Source of the DNA: a virus
IMG/VR virus record: IMGVR_UViG_3300032069_000020
Location: 1-42,852 of that record
DNA: 42,852 bases
Direction: 5' to 3' (one strand)
In this document: positions 3,071-39,324 of the stretch, in pieces
Layout of the letters: every line of letters starts with the position of its first letter
Numbering within the stretch: position 1 is the stretch's first letter
Notes under the pieces: generated by a model
What the model was told of the DNA's origin: nothing
What the model saw: only the letters and a program-made list of their open reading frames with translations
Database searches by the model: none
Translations under genes and position numbers: made by a program

Positions 3071-3487
3071 ATGGAGAAACTATTTATAGGACCGAAAGAA
3101 ATAAAAGAAGTGAGTCCAATTTATTCTGAAGAGTATAATAATGCTCAAATTGAATTGGTTGATGTAACTTATGTGGATGGAACCAAAGAGAAAATGACAA
3201 AAGCAATGTATGATATTAGCACAACTGATAAAGTGAGTGACTGGACTAAATTATTACAGCAGAGAGGGTTGGTGATTATTAAAGAAATACTTGCTTTGTT
3301 ACTTCGGTGGGGGGTTAAAGTTGAAGAAGTTAATTTCTTTACCAATTCGGTAATTCAATCAATCAATCAATCAATTCAAACTGCAGAAAGTAAATTGTGG
3401 ACAAAAGATGTGCATACCATAAATCTTATGGACGTTGATAAAGTGTTGAAAACCAAGGTAACTTTAGACGATGTACTAAGAACTTGA
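3071..3487 (+). CDS. Hypothetical protein upstream of the decoration-like gene
   Basis: 138 residues from ATG 3071, one base after the preceding stop. The open frame extends to 3050, but that would overlap. The coding sequence contains an AATC tetranucleotide run near 3355-3375, encoding an Asn/Ser/Ile/Gln-rich stretch that could slip. No family is recognised. The stop lies just before the promoter at 3484. Confidence 0.55.
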   Translation: MEKLFIGPKEIKEVSPIYSEEYNNAQIELVDVTYVDGTKEKMTKAMYDISTTDKVSDWTKLLQQRGLVIIKEILALLLRWGVKVEEVNFFTNSVIQSINQSIQTAESKLWTKDVHTINLMDVDKVLKTKVTLDDVLRT

Positions 3488-3512
3488 TTTTTTAATTGAA
3501 ATGATATATAAT
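3484..3512 (+). promoter_or_regulatory. Sigma70-type promoter for the capsid genes
   Basis: TTGATT at 3484-3489, a 17-base spacer and TATAAT at 3507-3512. The same -35/-10 pair recurs at 22865, 23688, 24777, 34829 and 39296. This copy has no DnaA-box-like sequence upstream. It should start RNA near 3519, giving a leader of about 185 bases with several hairpins before the gene at 3704. Confidence 0.75.
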
Positions 3513-22846: not shown

Positions 22847-22855
22847 TTATCCACA
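22847..22855 (-). promoter_or_regulatory. DnaA box, reversed, upstream of the lysis promoter
   Basis: TTATCCACA on the + strand, an exact DnaA-box consensus. Read on the - strand it extends to AGGTGTGGATAA, the same 12-mer as at 23671, 24759, 29590 and 34812. It lies 9 bases upstream of the TTGATT at 22865, in the opposite orientation to the other copies. Confidence 0.7.
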
Positions 22856-22864
22856 CCTAACCTT

Positions 22865-22893
22865 TTGATTTTTCCAGCTTCCGAGGTTATAAT
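22865..22893 (+). promoter_or_regulatory. Promoter for the transglycosylase gene
   Basis: TTGATT 22865-22870, 17-base spacer, TATAAT 22888-22893. The RNA would start near 22900 and carry a leader hairpin with GGGAA..GCTT paired to AAGCTTCCC before the ATG at 22947. Confidence 0.75.
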
Positions 22894-22946
22894 TATATGG
22901 GAATGCTTAATGAGTGAACTTATACTGAGCTGAAAGCTTCCCGATT

Positions 22947-23414
22947 ATGGCTTGGAAAAAAGTTATATGGACAATAGTTCTTATACCACTTATTTTTCTA
23001 CTTCTCTGGGTTTTATATAAAATTCTCATTCAAGAAGCAATTTTTTCCATTGTTTCAGCAGATACTATAATAGAAACAGCAACAAATACGAAGGTTATTA
23101 ATTCTACGAGTTCTGTTAAAGAATTTGTAGAACGTATGGCTTCTGTAATTGGAATACCTACAAGCACGGCTGATTTTATTATACGACACGAATCTAATTA
23201 TTGCCAAGATAAAAACGGTTTTAATGCGGAGATTGTAGGAGATAATGGAAATTCAAGAGGTTGTTGGCAAATAAACAAAGTATATCATCCGGAAGTTACA
23301 GATGAATGTGCTAACAGCTTATTTTGTAGCACTCATTGGAGTCTTAATTATATTAAAAATGGTTATATAAACGAGTGGAGCACTTGGAAATACAGAAACA
23401 AGTGGTATAAATAA
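22947..23414 (+). CDS. Membrane-anchored lytic transglycosylase/endolysin
   Basis: 155 residues. Residues 4-35 form an uncleaved signal-anchor helix. The catalytic domain has IIRHESNYC, with E82 as probable general acid, and GNSRGCWQINKVYHP, matching SLT/lysozyme-like folds (ES...GxxQI). Four Cys in the domain may form disulphides outside the cytoplasm. It should cut glycan strands, perhaps as a SAR-type endolysin. It has its own promoter (22865) and ends directly before a strong terminator. Confidence 0.8.
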   Translation: MAWKKVIWTIVLIPLIFLLLWVLYKILIQEAIFSIVSADTIIETATNTKVINSTSSVKEFVERMASVIGIPTSTADFIIRHESNYCQDKNGFNAEIVGDNGNSRGCWQINKVYHPEVTDECANSLFCSTHWSLNYIKNGYINEWSTWKYRNKWYK

Positions 23415-23445
23415 AAAAGACCAGTTTTTCTTTTTGGTCTTTTTT
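23413..23445 (+). terminator. Strong Rho-independent terminator of the lysis region
   Basis: AAAAAAGACCA (23413-23423) pairs with TGGTCTTTTTT (23435-23445), closing in a run of six T. It directly follows the stop at 23414 and separates lysis genes from the early region. Confidence 0.8.
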
Positions 23446-23631
23446 ATTTCTCCCTGAATACTGTTAAAGTAAGAGTTTCTTTAAGGGATACATCTTACTT
23501 AACCCCAAATATTCAAGACGGGTGCGACCCTTCTGAGAAAAACGATAGAGAGAAGATAATAGGCAAAATAGACTTATTTGTATCCCTATCTTGTCTCCGT
23601 CTTAATTATATAATACTTGTATTTAATAAAG
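23446..23631. other. Noncoding region with inverted repeats, origin candidate
   Basis: The gene-free gap runs from 23415 to 23723 (309 bases). AGGGATACA (23484-23492) is the exact complement of TGTATCCCT (23579-23587), and GACGG (23517-23521) can pair with CCGTC (23597-23601). An AT-rich stretch with TATAAT (23609-23614) follows, then two DnaA boxes at 23632 and 23673. This could be a replication origin read by host DnaA, or a small structured RNA. Neither is proven. Confidence 0.35.
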
Positions 23632-23640
23632 TGTGGATAA
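23632..23640 (+). promoter_or_regulatory. DnaA box
   Basis: TGTGGATAA, an exact DnaA-box consensus, followed by CTACG. It lies 41 bp (about four helical turns) upstream of the next exact box at 23673. Paired boxes in an AT-rich gap fit either an origin or cooperative regulator binding. Confidence 0.65.
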
Positions 23641-23672
23641 CTACGTAAAATAAAGGGTTTTTAGAGGTTAGG

Positions 23673-23717
23673 TGTGGATAACTCCTCTTGATTTTGGTCT
23701 TGAAACCATTTTATAAT
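23673..23717 (+). promoter_or_regulatory. DnaA-box promoter, early region 1
   Basis: TGTGGATAA 23673-23681, 6-base gap, TTGATT 23688-23693, 18-base spacer, TATAAT 23712-23717. The gene starts at 23724, about where transcription should begin, so its mRNA is probably leaderless. The module from AGGTG through TTGATT is nearly identical to those at 24761, 29592 and 34814. Confidence 0.75.
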
Positions 23718-23723
23718 CACAAT

Positions 23724-24050
23724 ATGAAGATAGGAATAATGACAAATAAACGAGAACGATATATTGGAGATTACCTTCCAGAGATAAATGTTTTTAGAAA
23801 AAACGTTAAAGAATCAAAACATTTATTCAGAAAGCTGGATGCTTGGGGAATTGACGGATATTTCTTTACGGAAGTTCTTTTACCTAAAAATGCACTTATA
23901 CATATTTGGGAGAGTGAAATGGGATTACATTATAGAATAACCGCAAAAGAGTTTAAAAAGTATGGTCGGTTTTATCATTTTAACAAAGGTGAAGATAATA
24001 AAGCACAAATCTTTTGTCCACGACATAGATTTACAATTACGGGAGAATAA
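23724..24050 (+). CDS. Early hypothetical protein (leaderless mRNA)
   Basis: 108 residues from ATG 23724; the open frame extends upstream into the promoter, which excludes earlier starts. Features such as FRKNVKESKHLFRKLDAWGI and RFYHFNKGEDNKAQIFCPRHRF suggest a small globular nucleic-acid-related protein; no family recognised. First gene of the early region. Early phage proteins of this kind are often host-takeover or anti-defence factors, but nothing in the sequence proves it. AAAGGTCG spans the stop. Confidence 0.6.
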   Translation: MKIGIMTNKRERYIGDYLPEINVFRKNVKESKHLFRKLDAWGIDGYFFTEVLLPKNALIHIWESEMGLHYRITAKEFKKYGRFYHFNKGEDNKAQIFCPRHRFTITGE

Positions 24051-24074
24051 AGGTCGGAGAAAATTAAACCTAAA

Positions 24075-24209
24075 ATGAATATGTTATCTAAACAAACACT
24101 TAATAATTTCTTCATCGCTGGTCTTTCTTTTGAAGAGTTACCCGAGGAAGACGAAAACGAAAACGAAGAAGAAGAGAAAAAAAAAGAAGAAGAAAACGAG
24201 GAGATGTGA
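24075..24209 (+). CDS. 44-residue protein with acidic tail
   Basis: ATG 24075 (or ATG 24081) to TGA 24209. The N-terminal 20 residues (MNMLSKQTLNNFFIAGLSFE) are followed by an unbroken run of Glu/Asp/Asn/Lys. Acidic DNA-mimic proteins and polymerase-binding peptides look like this, but the function is unknown. An A-rich leader precedes it, with the AAAGGTCG octamer 26 bases upstream. Confidence 0.5.
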   Translation: MNMLSKQTLNNFFIAGLSFEELPEEDENENEEEEKKKEEENEEM

Positions 24210-24227
24210 AAAACAGTAAATAAATAG

Positions 24228-24590
24228 ATGGAACAGGAACGAAAAACGAGATTTTTTCTTATTGGAAAAGTTCCAACGAAAAAGAATCGTTATAAAATCA
24301 GTCGTGGTAGAATGTATCAAGACCCAGAAGTTACAGCGTGGATGGATGCGGCTTACTATGCCATATATTATCCTGCCCGACAAATAATTACGGTTCCGTG
24401 TGGATTAAGTATTTTATTTAAGACTGATAACAGAAGTGACTTAGATGGAATGACTACAACTATTTTTGATTTATTACAGAAAGCAAAAGTAATAAAAAAC
24501 GATAGACAGATAGTAGAATTGACGGCAAAGAAAAAAGAATTGGATAAAAAAAAGTATTACAGAACAGAAATAGTTATCTATACACTATGA
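24228..24590 (+). CDS. rusA: RusA-like Holliday junction resolvase
   Basis: 120 residues, the usual RusA length. The motif D68-N-R-S-D71-L-D73-G-M and the later N-D92-R-Q match the catalytic acids of RusA (E. coli D70, D72, D91). K-x-N-R-Y near residue 20 matches the N-terminal basic motif. It should resolve branched DNA before packaging or during recombination. Followed by a gene overlapping in ATGA. Confidence 0.9.
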   Translation: MEQERKTRFFLIGKVPTKKNRYKISRGRMYQDPEVTAWMDAAYYAIYYPARQIITVPCGLSILFKTDNRSDLDGMTTTIFDLLQKAKVIKNDRQIVELTAKKKELDKKKYYRTEIVIYTL

Positions 24591-24769
24591 AGTGGAAAAC
24601 AATTGAAGATTTACATAAAGAACTTGAAAAAGTTCTTAGGTCACAGAAATCAAATAAATATGATATTGCTTCATTGATACTAAGATTAATTCATTCTAAG
24701 TACGGACTTGAAGAATATCGCAAAACGGTCAAAAAATTCGGTCTTGAGGAAATAATAAGGTGTGGATAA
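24587..24769 (+). CDS. Small hypothetical early protein
   Basis: 60 residues, helical and charged, overlapping the RusA stop by 4 bases. The end of this gene overlaps the DnaA box at 24761-24769, so the downstream promoter is embedded in its last codons (gly-stop). No family recognised. Confidence 0.55.
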   Translation: MKWKTIEDLHKELEKVLRSQKSNKYDIASLILRLIHSKYGLEEYRKTVKKFGLEEIIRCG

Positions 24770-24804
24770 CTTCCTCTTGATTCTATATAGAAGATATTTA
24801 TAAT
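24761..24804 (+). promoter_or_regulatory. DnaA-box promoter, early region 2
   Basis: TGTGGATAA 24761-24769, 7-base gap, TTGATT 24777-24782, 16-base spacer, TATAAT 24799-24804. The RNA should start near 24811, giving a leader of about 118 bases before 24929 that contains a 32-codon ORF and the operator. Confidence 0.75.
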
Positions 24805-26909: not shown

Positions 26910-27728
26910 ATGGCACAAAGAAGAATGATATCAAGTTCAATATCTACTTCAATTAAACTATCTAAAGTTTCTGATTTTTCGGCTTTATTATTTACTTGGC
27001 TTATTACTCATTGCGATGATTACGGACATATGGATGGAAGCCCTGAAATAGTTAGGGCGATAGTTATTCCTTTAAGAAAAAGAACGGTTAAAGAAGTAGA
27101 ATTGGCATTAATAGAGTTAGAAAGTGTAGGTCTTATAAAGAGATATAAAATAGAGAATAAAGAAGATATTTATTTAGAAATAGTTAATTGGGAAGATTAT
27201 CAAAGTATGGGACCCAATTATACTCGTAGAGCCAGATATCCTATCCCAGACTGGACTGCTTTTCAGAAACTTTTTAAGGCAAATAGTAACTTAGAAGGTA
27301 ATAGTGATAACTTAGAAGGTAATATAAAGGAAGATATAATTAAAAATACGTCGTCTCTTATAAGTAATAATAAAAGTAGTAATATATATATAATGAGCCT
27401 TCCCATATTGGCTAATAGCCAAAAAAAATCTTCTAATAGCAGGCAACCTATTGCTAATGAGGACTTAGAAGCAGTTTTTAACCATTACAAGTTAAAGATA
27501 AACGCGGCTTCTCGGTTAACAATGGCTGCTAAGCACAAAATTCGGTCACGTTTGGGTAGCTACACGTTAGAGGATATGCTTCTAAGCATTGACAACTTCG
27601 CAAACAACCGTTGGTGGATGGAAAATAATAGAGACAAGGGGTTAGCGTGGTTCTTTAGCTCGGATAATAGAATAGATATGTTTCTTAGTTTACAACCAGA
27701 AAAAATTGATAAATCAATAAAAGTATAA
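26910..27728 (+). CDS. Replication initiator (winged-helix/DnaD-like)
   Basis: 272 residues. The N-terminal ~110 residues resemble phage replisome organisers with a winged helix (FSALLFTWLITHCDDYGHMDG, RTVKEVELALIELESVGLI). A Ser/Asn linker follows (150-175). The C-terminal helical domain has 'YTLEDMLLSIDNFANNRWWMENN.DKGLAWFFSSDNRIDMFL', a pattern found at the end of phage replication proteins that load the host helicase. With no phage polymerase or helicase visible, it probably recruits the host replisome. An origin inside the gene is common in such phages; the runs of short direct repeats near 27280-27330 (AACTTAGAAGGTAAT) could be initiator sites. Confidence 0.7.
   Translation: MAQRRMISSSISTSIKLSKVSDFSALLFTWLITHCDDYGHMDGSPEIVRAIVIPLRKRTVKEVELALIELESVGLIKRYKIENKEDIYLEIVNWEDYQSMGPNYTRRARYPIPDWTAFQKLFKANSNLEGNSDNLEGNIKEDIIKNTSSLISNNKSSNIYIMSLPILANSQKKSSNSRQPIANEDLEAVFNHYKLKINAASRLTMAAKHKIRSRLGSYTLEDMLLSIDNFANNRWWMENNRDKGLAWFFSSDNRIDMFLSLQPEKIDKSIKV
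27280..27330 (+). repeat. Direct repeats inside the initiator gene
   Basis: AACTTAGAAGGTAATA occurs twice, about 24 bases apart (near 27288 and 27309), in the low-complexity linker of the initiator gene and followed by an AT-rich stretch with TATATATA at about 27385. Iterons inside an initiator gene are a known origin layout; two copies are weak evidence. Confidence 0.3.
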
Positions 27729-27732
27729 AGAA

Positions 27733-28332
27733 ATGGCAAAATTAAAAATTAGAGGTCATAATGAACTTGTGGAAATTGGGAATGAGAGAGCTAAAAATGT
27801 AAAGAAAATAATGCTTGATGATAGTGTTTCTGAGAATACAGAAATTGATTTGGGAGATATTATAACTAAAAAGAAAGAGATTTCTTTGGTTTTATTGGAT
27901 TCAGAAAGACGAGTGGATAGTCCACATAATAAAGCATTGTTGGATTACTATAAAAAAAGAGATGAATTACTTTCCTTAAGTCCAAGAGAAAGAGCGGAAA
28001 TATCGGGATGGGGTCATTTTAGTTTGTTTTATTTTGGACTTAAAGGAGAAAAACCAAATAAAGAGTTAAAAGAAAAAATCATTCAGATTGCCGAAAAGTT
28101 TTTTGAAGAAAATTCTAAGTGGAGTAGACCATCTTACAAGATATGGGAAGAATTACTTGAAGTAAACGATAATACGACGATAAATCCTGTAACCGCTCGT
28201 ATATTTTCAAAGATGGAGGAAGCAGAAATTCAAGATATAAAAAGCAAAGAAAGTTATGAGAATTTTTGTAAAGAAATGTCTTCTAAAGAGGAAGAGTTAA
28301 AGGTCGGTGAAGATTATTTTCCTTTGTTATGA
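27733..28332 (+). CDS. Hypothetical early protein
   Basis: 199 residues, charged and mostly helical. It starts 4 bases after the initiator stop and overlaps the next gene by 4. It contains 'LSPRERAEISGWGHFSLFYFGLKGEKPN', which I cannot place. Located between the replication initiator and the DNA-binding regulator, it may be a replication accessory factor. AAAGGTCG lies 30 bases upstream of the next start. Confidence 0.55.
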   Translation: MAKLKIRGHNELVEIGNERAKNVKKIMLDDSVSENTEIDLGDIITKKKEISLVLLDSERRVDSPHNKALLDYYKKRDELLSLSPRERAEISGWGHFSLFYFGLKGEKPNKELKEKIIQIAEKFFEENSKWSRPSYKIWEELLEVNDNTTINPVTARIFSKMEEAEIQDIKSKESYENFCKEMSSKEEELKVGEDYFPLL

Positions 28333-28766
28333 GTAGAAAACAGTATAAGAATTTAAAAGAAAGATTACGAAAGATTACTTTACTTCGTAAAAAAGGTTCA
28401 ACCTTAAAAGAGATTGGAGATGCTTTTGGTATTAGTCAGGAAAGAGTTAGACAACTTATAACTCAAAAAAAATATAAGAAATGTTTTAGTCATCACATTA
28501 AATTTCTTATACTTTGTCCTTATTGTGAAATTAAAAATTCTTACCTTAAAATTCTAAGCCGTATAATTAAAAATAGTAGGAGTTTACTTTATGAAGCTAA
28601 AAGATTATCTGAATTAGATAGGAAGAAAGTTAGTATTATACAGAAAGCAATTTTTATTAAAACAGTAAAGAATTCTTTACACTATAGTTTTAATAAAATT
28701 GCGAGATTACTTAAAAAACATCATTCTTCAATTATAAATCTTTATAATACTTCTTATGAAATATAA
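28329..28766 (+). CDS. Two-HTH protein: sigma4-like plus DnaA-IV-like domains
   Basis: 145 residues. Residues ~25-46 (TLKEIGDAFGISQERVRQLI) fit the sigma70 region 4.2 helix-turn-helix, which in sigma factors reads the -35 element. C52, H55/H56, C63 and C66 could form a zinc site. Residues ~105-140 (SFNKIARLLKKHHSSIINLY) align with the DnaA domain IV signature (SLPEIG..FGGRDHTTVLH); H132, S133 and S134 fall where DnaA has H434, T435 and T436, but the neighbouring Asp is replaced by His. It may therefore read the DnaA-box + TTGATT promoters of this phage. The first assignment is strong; the second and the target are inference. Confidence 0.6.
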   Translation: MSRKQYKNLKERLRKITLLRKKGSTLKEIGDAFGISQERVRQLITQKKYKKCFSHHIKFLILCPYCEIKNSYLKILSRIIKNSRSLLYEAKRLSELDRKKVSIIQKAIFIKTVKNSLHYSFNKIARLLKKHHSSIINLYNTSYEI

Positions 28767-29590: not shown

Positions 29591-29591
29591 G

Positions 29592-29635
29592 TGTGGATAA
29601 CTTTACTTGATTTCATAAACAAAATGATTTATCCT
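29592..29635 (+). promoter_or_regulatory. DnaA-box promoter of the 7-deazaguanine operon
   Basis: TGTGGATAA 29592-29600, 6-base gap, TTGATT 29607-29612, 17-base spacer, TATCCT 29630-29635 as a weak -10. A small TCCTA/TAGGA hairpin (about 29632-29645) and a strong Shine-Dalgarno AAAGGAGGAT (29651-29660) follow. I see no preQ1-riboswitch-like sequence. Confidence 0.65.
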
Positions 29636-29662
29636 AAAAATAGGACATTGAAAGGAGGATAT

Positions 29663-30382
29663 ATGATTAAGATAAACGAGATTTTTGGCCCGACTATTCA
29701 AGGAGAAGGCAAGTCGGCGGGAAAGGAAGTTATTTTCTTACGACTTGCTGGTTGTAATTTACGATGCCGCTGGTGTGATACTCCTTATACTTGGAACTGG
29801 ATTGGAACAAAATTTCAACATCCAGACAAGTATGACCCGAAGAAAGAGATTGTTTCGCTTACGCCGTGGCAAGTTTTTTGGCGTATTCTTCCAGGACCAA
29901 GAATGATTACAAATCTCGTGATTTCGGGTGGAGAACCACTACTTCAACAATCTCAACTTATTCCACTTTTACAAATTTTCAAACGTTACGGTTGGTGGAT
30001 TGAAGTTGAGACAAATGGAACAATTGTTCCTACAGATGAATTCTTGTCATTGGTAGACCAGATTAACTGTTCACCAAAGACAAGTAATTCTGGAGAGGAT
30101 AATCCTTCTGAGAAACGGGAACGACCCGAGGCATTGAGAAAGCTTGTTTCGTCTCCAAAAGTCTATTTCAAATTCGTTGTAGTTGATATGAAAGATATTT
30201 TGGAGATTCAATCGCTTGTTAACAAATACGAAATGAAACAGGTTTATCTTATGGCAGAAGGAAAGACCCGAGAGGAACAATTAACAAAAGAAAAAGAAGT
30301 TGAATCGGTCGCTCAACTCTTTGGATGGTTGTTTTCTCCCCGATTGCAAGTTCTGAAGTGGGGTAACAAACGGGGAGTATAA
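29663..30382 (+). CDS. queE: 7-carboxy-7-deazaguanine synthase (radical SAM)
   Basis: 239 residues from ATG 29663, decided by the Shine-Dalgarno AAAGGAGGAT. The open frame to 29591 crosses the promoter. The SAM-cluster motif is C31-x3-C35-x2-C38 in CNLRCRWCDT; IQGEGKSAG at 12-20 and ISGGEPLLQ later match QueE. It converts 6-carboxytetrahydropterin to CDG. The DNA is more GC-rich than its neighbours and the only gene here with a strong ribosome-binding site, so it may be a separate acquisition. A perfect 10-bp hairpin overlaps its stop. Confidence 0.95.
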   Translation: MIKINEIFGPTIQGEGKSAGKEVIFLRLAGCNLRCRWCDTPYTWNWIGTKFQHPDKYDPKKEIVSLTPWQVFWRILPGPRMITNLVISGGEPLLQQSQLIPLLQIFKRYGWWIEVETNGTIVPTDEFLSLVDQINCSPKTSNSGEDNPSEKRERPEALRKLVSSPKVYFKFVVVDMKDILEIQSLVNKYEMKQVYLMAEGKTREEQLTKEKEVESVAQLFGWLFSPRLQVLKWGNKRGV

Positions 30383-30397
30383 TTGTCTATACTCCCC
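30372..30397 (+). other. Perfect intergenic hairpin queE-queD
   Basis: GGGGAGTATA (30372-30381) pairs with TATACTCCCC (30388-30397) across loop ATTGTC, overlapping the queE stop. An A-rich, not T-rich, stretch follows, so it is more likely a processing or stability hairpin than a terminator. Confidence 0.55.
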
Positions 30398-30413
30398 AAA
30401 ATCTTAAAAAACT

Positions 30414-30794
30414 ATGAAATTAGAAATAAATCAATTCTTTGAAGCGGCTCATCAATTACCTGATAGTGAAGATTTGGTGAGCAAAAAATGTTGTAATCTT
30501 CACGGACATACGTATAAAGTTAAAATAGTATTATCTGGAAAGGTGGAAAAATCAGGTATGGTAGTAGATTTTGGAATTATTAAAAATATCATTTCTGAAC
30601 TTGACCATAAATTTCTAAACGATATTTTTGGAAAAATACCGACAACCGCAGAGAATATAGCAAAGTGGATTTACAGTAGAGTTCTTACCACTTGTAAAAT
30701 TGATAAAGAAAGAATTGGTATGTGGGAAGTTTTTGTATGTGAAGGTTATAAAGGAGACAAAAATTCAAGTTGGGTAATTTACAATGGCGAATAA
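30414..30794 (+). CDS. queD: 6-carboxy-tetrahydropterin synthase
   Basis: 126 residues, typical QueD/PTPS length. Motifs: FEAAHQL with zinc ligand H13, C26-x3-H30-G-H32 with catalytic Cys and two zinc His, and GMVVDFGIIKNII...LDHKFLND with the conserved DH; PTTAENIAKWI matches the 'PT.EN' motif. It converts dihydroneopterin triphosphate (from FolE) to 6-carboxytetrahydropterin. Overlaps the next small gene by 11 bases. Confidence 0.95.
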   Translation: MKLEINQFFEAAHQLPDSEDLVSKKCCNLHGHTYKVKIVLSGKVEKSGMVVDFGIIKNIISELDHKFLNDIFGKIPTTAENIAKWIYSRVLTTCKIDKERIGMWEVFVCEGYKGDKNSSWVIYNGE

Positions 30795-30942
30795 TTTTCT
30801 CAGTTTATTTACGGGGTTCGTTGTGGGTATTATATTTTCTATATTTAAACTACCAATACCTGCGCCACAAGTATTGGCAGGAATTCTTGGAATAATAGGT
30901 ATTTTTATAGGATATACTTTAGTAAATCTAATAATAAAATGA
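30784..30942 (+). CDS. XapX-domain (DUF1427-like) membrane protein
   Basis: 52 residues, ATG 30784 to TGA 30942, overlapping queD and folE (ATGA) so translation is coupled. It has two hydrophobic helices separated by KLPIPAPQVLAGILGIIGIF, which closely matches the XapX/DUF1427 signature (L.LPIPAP..LAG.LGI.GIF.G). XapX proteins are tiny membrane proteins of unknown role. Inside a preQ0 operon it may help move a deazapurine or precursor, but that is inference. Confidence 0.8.
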   Translation: MANNFLSLFTGFVVGIIFSIFKLPIPAPQVLAGILGIIGIFIGYTLVNLIIK

Positions 30943-31505
30943 CAAAAACAGAAATAGAAAAATTTCTTCTTATAGAAAAAATAATAGAAAGTATAGGAGA
31001 TTCTCCTTATAGGGAAGGATTAAAAGATACTCCTAACAGAGTTAAATCTATGTGGAATGAAGTTTTTGAAGGATATAATTTAAGTAAAAAGCCAACTCTT
31101 ACGTTTTTTGATAATGGTAAAGATGGAATAAAATATGATGAAATTGTTTGCGACGAAGGAATGTTTTATAGTCATTGCGAACATCATATTGTTCCCTTTT
31201 TCGGAAAGTATTATTTTGGCTATATTCCAGGTAAAAAAGTAGTAGGATTAAGTAAAATTGCTCGTTTAGTCAAATGGCACGCTTCACGATTACAAGTTCA
31301 AGAAAGATTAACAAAAGATATAGTTGATGATGTATGGCAACAATTAAAACCGAGAGGAGTAATTCTTGTATTAAAAGGTCGTCATCTTTGTAAAGAAATG
31401 AGAGGAATAAAACAACAAGGAGAAATGATAACATCGCAGGTTAGAGGTTTATTCAAAGATAAATTCGGCGTGAAACAGGAATTCTTTAATTTAATAGGAT
31501 TATGA
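30939..31505 (+). CDS. folE: GTP cyclohydrolase I
   Basis: 188 residues, typical FolE length. Zinc ligands C80, H83 (SHCEHHIVPF) and C151 (GRHLCKEMRGI) are present, with GLSKIARLV and RLQVQERLT. It makes dihydroneopterin triphosphate from GTP, the first step to preQ0. Coupled to the XapX gene at 5' and to queC at 3' (ATGA). One AAAGGTCG octamer lies in the conserved 'KGRHLC' codons. Confidence 0.95.
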   Translation: MTKTEIEKFLLIEKIIESIGDSPYREGLKDTPNRVKSMWNEVFEGYNLSKKPTLTFFDNGKDGIKYDEIVCDEGMFYSHCEHHIVPFFGKYYFGYIPGKKVVGLSKIARLVKWHASRLQVQERLTKDIVDDVWQQLKPRGVILVLKGRHLCKEMRGIKQQGEMITSQVRGLFKDKFGVKQEFFNLIGL

Positions 31506-32389
31506 TACAAGATAATACTTATTCAGAAATTGCGAAAGAAATAATGATAGCAGGATTAAATAAGTCTTCATTGGAAGTATCCAAAGATTTTGCTAGATTT
31601 ATCAATCAAGAGTTATTTAATGTTCCAGAAAAACCGGAAGAGTATAAACCGACATTTGAAGTTTTAATTCCAGAAACCGCAGTTCTTGTTAGTGGTGGAC
31701 TTGATTCGTCGGTTTTATATTTTAGAGCAATTCAAAATTATCAAAATGTAAGAGCTTACTATATAGATATTGGTCAGCCGTATAAAGATAAAGAAATGGA
31801 AGCATTGGATAGATTAGGAATAGATTTTGATTATATCAATACCGGATTATCATTTAATTCAAAACTATACTGGAAACATATTATTCCTGGTAGAAATTTT
31901 TACTTTTTGGCTTTAATAGCGGAACAAATGAGGGGTGGTGGAAGAATTTTATTTGGAGTATTAAATGGAGAAATGCCAAAAAGTGGTGGAGATAAATCAA
32001 AAAAGTTTTTAGTGAGTGTAAATAAATTATTCAAGAGGCTTCCTTATCAAGTAGTAGTAGAAACTCCACTTGAAAATGAGACAAAAACGGATTTAGTTCG
32101 GTGGTGGAAAAATAATCTTCCTCTTGAGAAATTGGATTATACAATTAGTTGTTTTGAAAAAAAAGAGGGACATTGCGGGGAATGTCAATCTTGTTTAAGA
32201 AAAGCATTAGCTTATATATCAAATGGTCTTATTTTAAAAACCGATGTAGATGTTAGAATTGGATGTAAAGAATATATTGATAAATATCTTAAAGTTTTGG
32301 GAGATGCCTTAAAGAAAAAAGATTTTAGTCATTACTCAAAAAGGAGATGTAAACAAGACCTTAGAGCGATATCTTTATTACTAAAATGA
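31502..32389 (+). CDS. queC: 7-cyano-7-deazaguanine synthase
   Basis: 295 residues; longer than the usual ~230 because of an N-terminal extension of ~50 residues. The PP-loop S64-G-G-L-D-S-S70 binds ATP. The C-terminal zinc cluster is CFEKKEGHCGECQSCLRKA (Cys near 222, 230, 233, 236). It converts CDG to preQ0 with ATP and ammonia. Coupled to folE and to the methyltransferase by ATGA overlaps. Confidence 0.93.
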   Translation: MIQDNTYSEIAKEIMIAGLNKSSLEVSKDFARFINQELFNVPEKPEEYKPTFEVLIPETAVLVSGGLDSSVLYFRAIQNYQNVRAYYIDIGQPYKDKEMEALDRLGIDFDYINTGLSFNSKLYWKHIIPGRNFYFLALIAEQMRGGGRILFGVLNGEMPKSGGDKSKKFLVSVNKLFKRLPYQVVVETPLENETKTDLVRWWKNNLPLEKLDYTISCFEKKEGHCGECQSCLRKALAYISNGLILKTDVDVRIGCKEYIDKYLKVLGDALKKKDFSHYSKRRCKQDLRAISLLLK

Positions 32390-33009
32390 ATAATGATATA
32401 CGAGAGAGAATAGATAGTGAGACTCCTGAGATTATTAAAGAATTATATTTGACTCCTTATAGACATTTTTCTTATTTATTCTGGAATATAGGATTTAAAA
32501 CAATAGTTGATTTGGGATGTGGAAATGGATTTGGAATTAATATAATGCGAAATTATTTTAAACAAGTTCTTGGAGTTGATAAAGATATGCTTCTTCAAAC
32601 ATCGGATTTTATCGTTGACGACGTTACGAATTTAAAACAAATTAAAGATAAATCTTTTGATGGAGCGTTTTGTTTTGAAGTAATTGAACATCTTAATGAA
32701 GAGGACCAAAAGAAACTTGTTAAAGAAATGAATCGGATTACAAAAATGGGATTTGTTATAGGAAGCACAAGTAAGTCAGGTCCAAATACAATCGCAGGGG
32801 TGGAAATTTTCAAAGGAAAAAGAAATTCTTATCATTTGAAAGAGTTAGATTTAGACGAATTAAAAAATTTAGTTAAGAATGAAGTTCAAGATTTAACTAT
32901 TATGGAATTTGGGTCAACATATCTTCGGGATAAAGAATTTATTAGAATAGACCCATTTATTGGACAAAAAAGATTGTTTTGTAATTATGTTATGGTATTA
33001 AAAGAATGA
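32386..33009 (+). CDS. Class I SAM-dependent methyltransferase
   Basis: 207 residues. Motif I is TIVDLGCGNGFGINIM, then LGVDKD, and FDGAFCFEVIEHLNEEDQ for motifs IV-V. No DPPY-type DNA-methylase motif is seen, so it is more like small-molecule or late-acting methyltransferases. Between queC and dpdA, it may methylate the 7-deazaguanine side chain or another product of this operon. The absence of QueF argues against a preQ1-based product unless the host supplies QueF. Confidence 0.7.
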   Translation: MNNDIRERIDSETPEIIKELYLTPYRHFSYLFWNIGFKTIVDLGCGNGFGINIMRNYFKQVLGVDKDMLLQTSDFIVDDVTNLKQIKDKSFDGAFCFEVIEHLNEEDQKKLVKEMNRITKMGFVIGSTSKSGPNTIAGVEIFKGKRNSYHLKELDLDELKNLVKNEVQDLTIMEFGSTYLRDKEFIRIDPFIGQKRLFCNYVMVLKE

Positions 33010-33800
33010 TTTTATTTTTTGCGGGGGCAGATAATAGTAAGTTTATAGATATTCTTGAAAAATGTAACGTAAAGAATATTTTGATATCTTTTTACTGGAC
33101 AAAAAACAGTGAGAATCTTAAAAAAATCGCAGATAGATTCAATGTTTTTGTAGATAGTGGTGGATATACGGCAAGAAAAATGGGAGTAAACATTGATGTT
33201 AAAAGATATGGTGAGTTTTTAAAGAAAAATAAAGATAGAATTTTTATGGCTGCAAATCTTGATGTATATGATTTGAATATAGCATTAGAAAATCAGAAAT
33301 ACTTACAACAATTTTATCCAATTATACCAGTTTTTCATTACTCGGAATATGCTAATAAAAGACAGGATTTACTTGATGAGTTTTGTAAAAATAATCAATA
33401 TATAGCTGTAGGAGGAATTGCTGGAATGAATATAGATACGAAATCGGTTATAAACTTTCTGAATTTCTGTTTTAGAACTACAATTAAATATAAAACAAAA
33501 GTTCACGGATTCGGGATAACTGCTTTGAAGTATTTAGTTGAATATCCATTTTATTCAGTAGATAGCACTTCTTGGCTTACAGGAGGTCAATATGGTCAAT
33601 TATTAAAATGGGATAGTAAGAATTTTGATATGGAAACAAGTATTCATTATAGTGACAAAGATTCATTTTTAAAACATAATTTTAATATAAATCTTATAGA
33701 AAGTTATAAAGGTCGGTTGATTCACAATGTAGGAGAATTGCTTAAATGCGAGAAGGAAATAACAAGATTGTGGGAAGAGAGAGGAATTTTATACGAGTAG
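33006..33800 (+). CDS. dpdA: DpdA-like 7-deazaguanine DNA transglycosylase
   Basis: 264 residues. A TGT-like barrel is suggested by D50-S-G-G-Y (VDSGGYTAR), AVGGIAG at 134-140, VHGFGIT at 166-172 and SVDSTSWLTGG with D186. The pair D50 and D186 corresponds to the catalytic Asp residues of tRNA-guanine transglycosylases. Next to queC/D/E and folE it should exchange guanine for preQ0 (or a derivative) in DNA, as phage DpdA proteins do. Overlaps queC-methyltransferase and HAD genes. Length is in the range of compact phage DpdA forms. Confidence 0.85.
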   Translation: MILFFAGADNSKFIDILEKCNVKNILISFYWTKNSENLKKIADRFNVFVDSGGYTARKMGVNIDVKRYGEFLKKNKDRIFMAANLDVYDLNIALENQKYLQQFYPIIPVFHYSEYANKRQDLLDEFCKNNQYIAVGGIAGMNIDTKSVINFLNFCFRTTIKYKTKVHGFGITALKYLVEYPFYSVDSTSWLTGGQYGQLLKWDSKNFDMETSIHYSDKDSFLKHNFNINLIESYKGRLIHNVGELLKCEKEITRLWEERGILYE

Positions 33801-34198: not shown

Positions 34199-34832
34199 TA
34201 AATTCCCAACAAAAGTAATAGAAGTAGGAATTAACGAACTTGTTCCAAATAAATGGAATCCAAATGTTCAAAGTGAAAAAATTCACGAATCTGTTAAAAA
34301 ATCTATTGAGCGATACGGAATGATTAATAATTTACTTGTTAGAGAATATGTCGGGCAATATCAGATTATTGCTGGAGAGCATAGATGGCGTATTTGTAAA
34401 GAGTTAGGATATACAACACTTAAAGTGGATAACTTAGGTGAAATAAAAGATGACGACGCTAAAGCATTGACGGAGTTACTTAATACAAGTGGCGAAGATG
34501 ACCCAATTAAACAAGCTAAATTATTTAGAGAACTCCAACAAAATCATTTGTCATTATTTCCTCTTACCAATGAAGAGATAGAAAACAAAAAGAAATTGAT
34601 AGATTTTGATTTTAGTAAATATGAAAAAGAAGAAGTCGTTGAAGAAAAGCGAAATAGAGTAATGGCATTTCCTTTAAGTGAGGCGGAGTATGAAATTGTT
34701 AGACACGCCTTATCATTAACCAAAAAAGACCAAACTGCTGGTTTAATGATGATTGTAAAAGAATATTTAGAGATAAGAGAGGAAATTATGAGGTATAACA
34801 CCGAAAAACAAGGTGTGGATAACTCCTCTTGA
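34185..34832 (+). CDS. ParB/sulfiredoxin-like protein, DpdB-like candidate
   Basis: 215 residues. The ParB-like fold is shown by ELVPNKWNPNVQ, RYGMINNLLVRE and IIAGEHRWRICKELGY near residue 60-75. Bacterial dpd clusters include a ParB-related ATPase (DpdB) that works with DpdA to insert preQ0; this gene lies two genes after dpdA, so a similar role is plausible. The C-terminal half is helical (AFPLSEAEYEIVRHALSL). It could instead be a general ParB nuclease or partition-like protein. Its 3' end overlaps the next DnaA box. Confidence 0.7.
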   Translation: MSTINKFPTKVIEVGINELVPNKWNPNVQSEKIHESVKKSIERYGMINNLLVREYVGQYQIIAGEHRWRICKELGYTTLKVDNLGEIKDDDAKALTELLNTSGEDDPIKQAKLFRELQQNHLSLFPLTNEEIENKKKLIDFDFSKYEKEEVVEEKRNRVMAFPLSEAEYEIVRHALSLTKKDQTAGLMMIVKEYLEIREEIMRYNTEKQGVDNSS

Positions 34833-34857
34833 TTCTGTAAGGGTAAGCATTTATAAT
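34814..34857 (+). promoter_or_regulatory. DnaA-box promoter of the accessory region
   Basis: TGTGGATAA 34814-34822, 6-base gap, TTGATT 34829-34834, 17-base spacer, TATAAT 34852-34857. The leader to ATG 34874 is only about 10 bases and lacks a Shine-Dalgarno site. Confidence 0.75.
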
Positions 34858-39278: not shown

Positions 39279-39324
39279 TGTGGATGTAGATTAACTTGAT
39301 TTTTTAATAGAAGTACTATATAAT
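39279..39324 (+). promoter_or_regulatory. Promoter of the noncoding element and terminase region
   Basis: TTGATT 39296-39301, 17-base spacer, TATAAT 39319-39324. TGTGGATGT (39279-39287) 8 bases upstream of the -35 is a degenerate DnaA box with two mismatches at its end. RNA should start near 39331, just before the long helix at 39361. Confidence 0.7.

Follow-up and report, generated by a model that had tools for sequence, protein, structure and literature searches.

Does one small phage protein join a sigma factor-type and a DnaA-type DNA-binding head, and does it act at promoters of its own phage in which a DnaA box lies next to a TTGATT −35 element? The question is raised by an open reading frame (ORF) of IMG/VR record IMGVR_UViG_3300032069_000020, a virus whose 42,852 bases, taken at full length, are the window analysed here and whose genes include a terminase, a replication-initiation-type gene, a resolvase and a 7-deazaguanine set. 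The initial annotation had proposed such a hybrid regulator, matched to bipartite promoters of the phage, and had held that a protein reading both elements would be a new kind of promoter-selective factor. The protein (P0001) contains TLKEIGDAFGISQERVRQLI, a cysteine/histidine segment (C52..H55/H56..C63-P-Y-C66) and IARLLKKHHSSIINLY. The opposite strand across 28329-28766 is stop-rich, and the gene lies two genes downstream of the replication-initiation-type (Rep-type) gene at 26910.

28329-28766, + strand: ORF of the hybrid protein P0001, 145 aa; ortholog at L138:2045-2494, gene order shared
28353-28463, + strand: sigma-70 region 4-like helix-turn-helix (HTH), residues 9-45; Pfam Sigma70_r4, E 1.8e-8
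28482-28526, + strand: possible zinc site, C52-x2-H55...C63-x2-C66; four ligands kept in a 28%-identical ortholog
28554-28754, + strand: DnaA domain IV-like region, residues about 76-142, recognition helix KHHSSII; Pfam Bac_DnaA_C and two-sequence profile

Two heads and a linker

The Sigma70_r4 match of P0001 is over the curated Pfam cut-off, as is that of the ortholog P0004 (E 2e-6), and the HTH is modelled at a pLDDT of about 80–87 in a single-sequence structure model, in keeping with the sigma-like head first proposed. Within the 145 residues, Pfam detects a region 4-like HTH but neither sigma region 2 nor region 3; P0001 therefore cannot alone be a sigma factor. A full-length match to phrog_10624 was discarded as support, since its score is owed almost entirely to the N-terminal HTH and it thus has no value as evidence. 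The C-x2-H...C-x2-C linker, likewise part of the original proposal, probably binds zinc, as judged from the conservation of its C, H, C and C ligands in the diverged ortholog.

Judged from the window copy alone, the DnaA domain IV assignment of the C-terminal half would be weak. The Bac_DnaA_C match (residues 93-139, E 5.6e-4) stays under the Pfam cut-off; with 20.3 bits for P0001 and 29.7 bits for P0004 against a cut-off of 31.5, each copy alone falls short, and HTH_38 scores as well as Bac_DnaA_C on P0001. A profile of 13 DnaA-IV domains from hosts and phages, with P0001 left out, matched P0001 at E 0.0014; of some 11,000 phage ORFs that did not belong to the training set, none ranked higher. 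With a 25-sequence profile, P0001 was found at E 0.0021 and the next unrelated ORF at 0.2. Pfam gave no match to an AAA+ ATPase domain in the 145 residues.

The assignment is carried by the ortholog. Contig L138 (CAINLW010000049.1) encodes the 150-aa protein P0004, directly followed by a match to the window gene at 28756, with queE and queD farther along. P0004 has the recognition helix FGFDHSTII and Bac_DnaA_C as its best Pfam family (E 6.4e-7). We combined P0001 and P0004 into a two-sequence profile and searched whole Patescibacteria genomes in six frames. The C-terminal half of the profile retrieved DnaA (E 8.1e-8 in G101, where Pfam's DnaA model also matches, and 8.6e-6 in G373), the ORFs matched in G373, G374 and G375 being evidently full DnaA, and the N-terminal half retrieved sigma-type ORFs. 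Among 3,041 host-locus ORFs, the leading matches (>20 loci) were all DnaA, at profile positions of about 86–147. Among phage ORFs, the strong non-self matches of the N-terminal half were HTH proteins, with a sigma-type protein of phage G012 on top, and those of the C-terminal half were the stand-alone DnaA-IV proteins from L200 and G012. At the level of the family, we regard the sequence kinship of the C-terminal half with DnaA domain IV as established, because the ortholog has the Asp of the recognition helix, keeps the C/H site and has Bac_DnaA_C as best Pfam family; the second HTH of the initial annotation is upheld on this basis.

That the C-terminal half is instead an ordinary HTH, like DnaA-IV by convergence, seems to us very improbable. 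The equal scores of HTH_38 and Bac_DnaA_C on P0001 would fit such an origin, as would single-sequence hhalign, which does not separate the C-terminal half from the N-terminal HTH of the same protein, but the best family of P0004 and the selection of DnaA from whole genomes by the two-sequence profile argue against it. So does the distance between the basic loop (RKK) and the recognition helix, which agrees with DnaA-IV within about one residue.

Alignment-free structure prediction yielded no usable model of the C-terminus of P0001 and lent a DnaA-IV fold there no support; alignments of homologues are too shallow. AlphaFold without an alignment gave a poor model of the whole protein past the first HTH and, for the C-terminal part alone, a single long helix of high pLDDT that is at odds with the whole-protein model; we consider this lone helix the usual artefact of single-sequence runs. 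Foldseek returned nothing significant.

The residues expected to touch DNA differ between the two copies. In E. coli DnaA, such residues include D433, H434 and T436. According to the work cited in PMC9638019, R399 and S400 touch the minor groove and T435 touches bases in the major groove. In our alignment, R399, D433, H434, T435 and T436 correspond to K106, H131, H132, S133 and S134 in P0001, and to R105, D, H, S and T in P0004. The basic-loop Arg and the DH(S/T)(S/T) helix are thus present in P0004, and P0001 has Lys and HHSS; the replacement of a key Asp by His, as originally pointed out, is confirmed for P0001 (H131).

Direct searches of IMG/VR, the phage collection and about 680 Patescibacteria genomes gave no ortholog beyond that in L138. 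The family comprises two known members, and both phages share ancestry around this region. Taking both heads and the C-x2-H/C-x2-C linker together, we conclude from sequence that the gene very probably encodes a two-headed phage transcription regulator, in which a sigma4-like HTH is combined with an HTH derived from DnaA domain IV.

DnaA boxes at the phage promoters

Four promoters of the window have the form TGTGGATAA-N6/7-TTGATT-N16-18-(TATAAT or TATCCT), with the box upstream and in one orientation. A further promoter has the box reversed.

22847-22893, + strand: TTGATT/TATAAT promoter, box reversed, 9 bp upstream
23673-23717, + strand: box promoter TGTGGATAA-N6-TTGATT-N18-TATAAT; additional box at 23632-23640
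24761-24804, + strand: box promoter, N7, spacer 16; precedes the exonuclease-like gene (24929), 26069, the Rep-type gene (26910), 27733 and the hybrid gene
29592-29635, + strand: box promoter, N6, spacer 17, −10 TATCCT; upstream of queE
34814-34857, + strand: box promoter, N6, spacer 17, TATAAT; upstream of the 34874 gene

We estimated chance expectation from 200 approximately dinucleotide-preserving shuffles. The window holds six exact boxes (0.56 expected) and four instances of box-N5-8-TTGATT (0.005 expected), and the extended similarity GGTGTGGATAACT is common to all four box promoters. The DnaA box beside a TTGATT −35 that had been noticed in the phage promoters is thus present in four copies, with gaps of 6, 7, 6 and 6 bp at 23673, 24761, 29592 and 34814.

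These promoters head early and middle operons, the operon of the hybrid gene among them. Two further promoters, at 3484 and 39296, have the form TTGATT-N17-TATAAT with no exact box; the genes behind them are structural and terminase-side ones, and they perhaps represent a late promoter class. The box may mark early operons. Promoters 3484-3512 and 39296-39324 share AACTTGATTTTTTAATwGAA...TATATAATTAC, part of the spacer included, and a decayed box-like TTGTGGATGTA lies upstream of the latter. The 7-deazaguanine (queuosine-type) set at 29591-33800, which comprises QueE, QueD, GTP cyclohydrolase I, QueC and a tRNA-guanine transglycosylase-like protein, has a single box promoter in front.

The arrangement of the boxes also bears on a replication accessory, in which the DnaA-IV head would mark the phage origin and the promoters would be a side effect of boxes scattered around it. 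Four of the boxes fall inside 22847-24769, the hybrid gene follows the Rep-type gene at a distance of two genes, and DnaA-IV proteins of Pelagibacter phages are annotated 'DNA replication initiation'. Five of the six boxes, however, sit 6–9 bp from a −35 element, a spacing for which an origin would have no need, and the initiation of replication offers no obvious task for a sigma4-like head; we consider a replication accessory improbable.

Candidate readers of the box

A role of the hybrid protein at the box promoters is consistent with contig L138, where the hybrid ortholog occurs together with a box promoter at queE whose position corresponds to that of the 29592 promoter of the window. As L138 was retrieved via its box promoter, this co-occurrence is biased. 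A homologue in a phage without the box, which would speak against the pairing, was looked for and not found, with the sole homologue, that of L138, picked by its box.

Phage G012 carries the DnaA-IV and sigma-like parts as two genes. It has two box promoters, and one lies directly before a stand-alone DnaA-IV gene (L158:9726-10022, − strand; 98 aa, Pfam 6.9e-11), a position likewise consistent with a promoter role of the hybrid. The same region encodes a separate sigma r3/r4-like protein of 320 aa with zinc-type motifs (several C-x2-C; L158:10948-11910, − strand), possibly a phage sigma-like factor without region 2. Another stand-alone DnaA-IV protein (L200:10041-10319, + strand) is encoded directly behind the box-containing sequence TGTGGATTA. 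The position of the genes in L158 and L200 behind DnaA boxes makes autoregulation possible.

Other genomes separate promoter and protein. Phage G011, a relative by gene order, carries a promoter that is nearly identical (AGGTGTGGATAACTTTACTTGATT), and neither a hybrid nor a DnaA-IV protein is detectable in it; G049, a relative whose terminase is 55% identical, lacks the hybrid and any box. Across IMG/VR, 103 stretches match the box promoter versus 80 with the box reversed as a control, so that most of these matches should not be taken as real, and we dropped the idea that box promoters are widespread among phages. Matches in L001/L002 (unrelated proteins) and in L193 (an unrelated T4-like phage) were set aside as chance. 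In Pelagibacter-type phages (L234-L313), DnaA-IV proteins with a conserved N-terminal part are common. Their loci show no excess of consensus boxes (2 found vs 3.2 expected in 494 kb), and a general pairing of phage DnaA-IV proteins with consensus boxes was rejected.

In bacterial genomes, about 20 of the 42 matches to the box-TTGATT promoter are found ahead of genes of the lexA type, for the most part in Patescibacteria (L113, L116, L118, L121, L124, L125, L127, L131, L133, L142, L145, L147, L150 and others); one of these genes was verified as LexA by Pfam. A search independent of the box found the lexA promoter core in 3 of 297 genomes of one order, two with an exact box and one with a decayed box. 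In the Patescibacteria lexA-type promoters, the DnaA box lies 5–7 bp upstream of TTGATT and the spacer is TTCTAyTTTTGTTCTA; several of the LexA-type ORFs behind box promoters are unusually long (370–507 aa), as if domain-fused. The host of the virus is likely one of the Patescibacteria (ultra-small bacteria), given the lineage of the promoter matches and the genome of the L138 ortholog, which is in the same order as Campbellbacteria genomes (G059, G061).

The lexA-type promoters, together with that of G011, make host DnaA a serious rival as reader of the boxes. Early phage transcription would then be coupled to the replication state of the host, and the hybrid protein would have its targets elsewhere or just compete for the boxes. 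The boxes are exact DnaA consensus, and DnaA domain IV is over the Pfam cut-off in 52 of 59 sampled Patescibacteria genomes, those read showing the canonical DHTT. Transcription of E. coli uvrB, according to PMC6015884, is controlled by DnaA together with LexA. The altered contact residues of P0001 beside perfect boxes point the same way. Reading by host DnaA nevertheless leaves unexplained why this phage family fuses DnaA-IV to a sigma4-like HTH and why the stand-alone DnaA-IV gene of G012 lies behind its own box promoter. Host DnaA is nearly as good a candidate reader, and we hold this explanation as a whole to be a real, if tentative, possibility.

The reading that we prefer, to which we give a nearly even chance, is that the two-headed regulator acts at the phage box promoters and helps polymerase to start the early and middle operons. 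In this mechanism, (i) the DnaA-type head of P0001 would take the TGTGGATAA box, (ii) the sigma4-like head would sit at or near the weak TTGATT −35 or touch RNA polymerase there, and (iii) both heads jointly would aid initiation, including at the operon of the hybrid gene itself. The same contacts could alternatively repress the box promoters late in infection. Against an action at these promoters count G011, the contact residues K, H, S and S next to boxes of perfect consensus, the IMG/VR control, the alignment-free models without a DnaA-IV fold, and the sampling of L138, in phages that are related. Of the match between hybrid regulator and bipartite promoters, the architecture, conservation and box/−35 geometry are retained, whereas a reading of the two promoter elements by the protein remains a proposal: G011 and host lexA genes have the promoter without a hybrid, and the changed contact residues beside perfect boxes point as much to host DnaA. 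The strongest form, in which one small protein reads the DnaA box and the adjacent −35 at once, replaces sigma region 4 and thereby sets up a separate class of phage promoters, is unlikely in our estimate.

Relation to GafA and other regulators

To speak of a new kind of factor overstates the case, because a DnaA-like and a sigma-like DNA-binding domain are already paired within GafA, a protein of the Rhodobacter capsulatus gene transfer agent (PMC6363796, PMC9638019). Binding to its promoters and to the omega subunit of RNA polymerase is a further trait of GafA. As described in PMC6363796 and PMC9638019, both domains bind around the core promoter and polymerase is recruited; the sigma-like part binds the −10/−35 region and the DnaA-like part flanking DNA (PMC9638019). 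P0001 shares with GafA this domain pair in a phage-type element, and GafA is reported to be split into two genes in Rhizobiales/Hyphomicrobiales (PMC6363796, PMC9638019), as the parts are in phage G012. In contrast to P0001, with 145 aa, the reverse order and a zinc-type linker, GafA has 382 aa with the DnaA-like domain first. Its homologues are annotated DUF6456 (PF20057), for which no match at E <= 1 was found in the record of P0001 (G000), in G373 or in G012. Consensus DnaA boxes, present at the promoters of P0001's phage, are not described for GafA promoters in the available text of PMC6363796 and PMC9638019. GafY, the Caulobacter counterpart, acts through contact with RpoD domains 3-4 and assists polymerase where the −35 is degenerate (PMC11150451). 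TTGATT is a degenerate −35 as well.

Other systems share single traits with P0001. Greip gp42 and HTVC024P gp26 of Pelagibacter phages, as well as the proteins of G012 and L200, have DnaA-IV without AAA+ and are encoded in early/replication regions, but lack the sigma4-like HTH and the zinc site. With sigma-70 factors P0001 shares the N-terminal HTH with its ERVRQ signature, though not region 2 or 3. T4 MotA/AsiA are phage factors that, according to PMC6755090, redirect host polymerase to phage middle promoters; unlike P0001, they are two unrelated proteins with no DnaA-type domain. HuH transposase-like proteins carry a C-terminal Bac_DnaA_C as a fused DNA-binding module (PMC6006769), but are endonucleases and not transcription regulators.

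P0001 would be a regulator of transcription for phages of Patescibacteria, on which experimental knowledge is scant. It would represent a minimal GafA-style regulator whose candidate site, a consensus DnaA box at a fixed distance from a weak −35, is directly visible in the sequence, and it points to DnaA domain IV as a promoter-reading module that can be reused.
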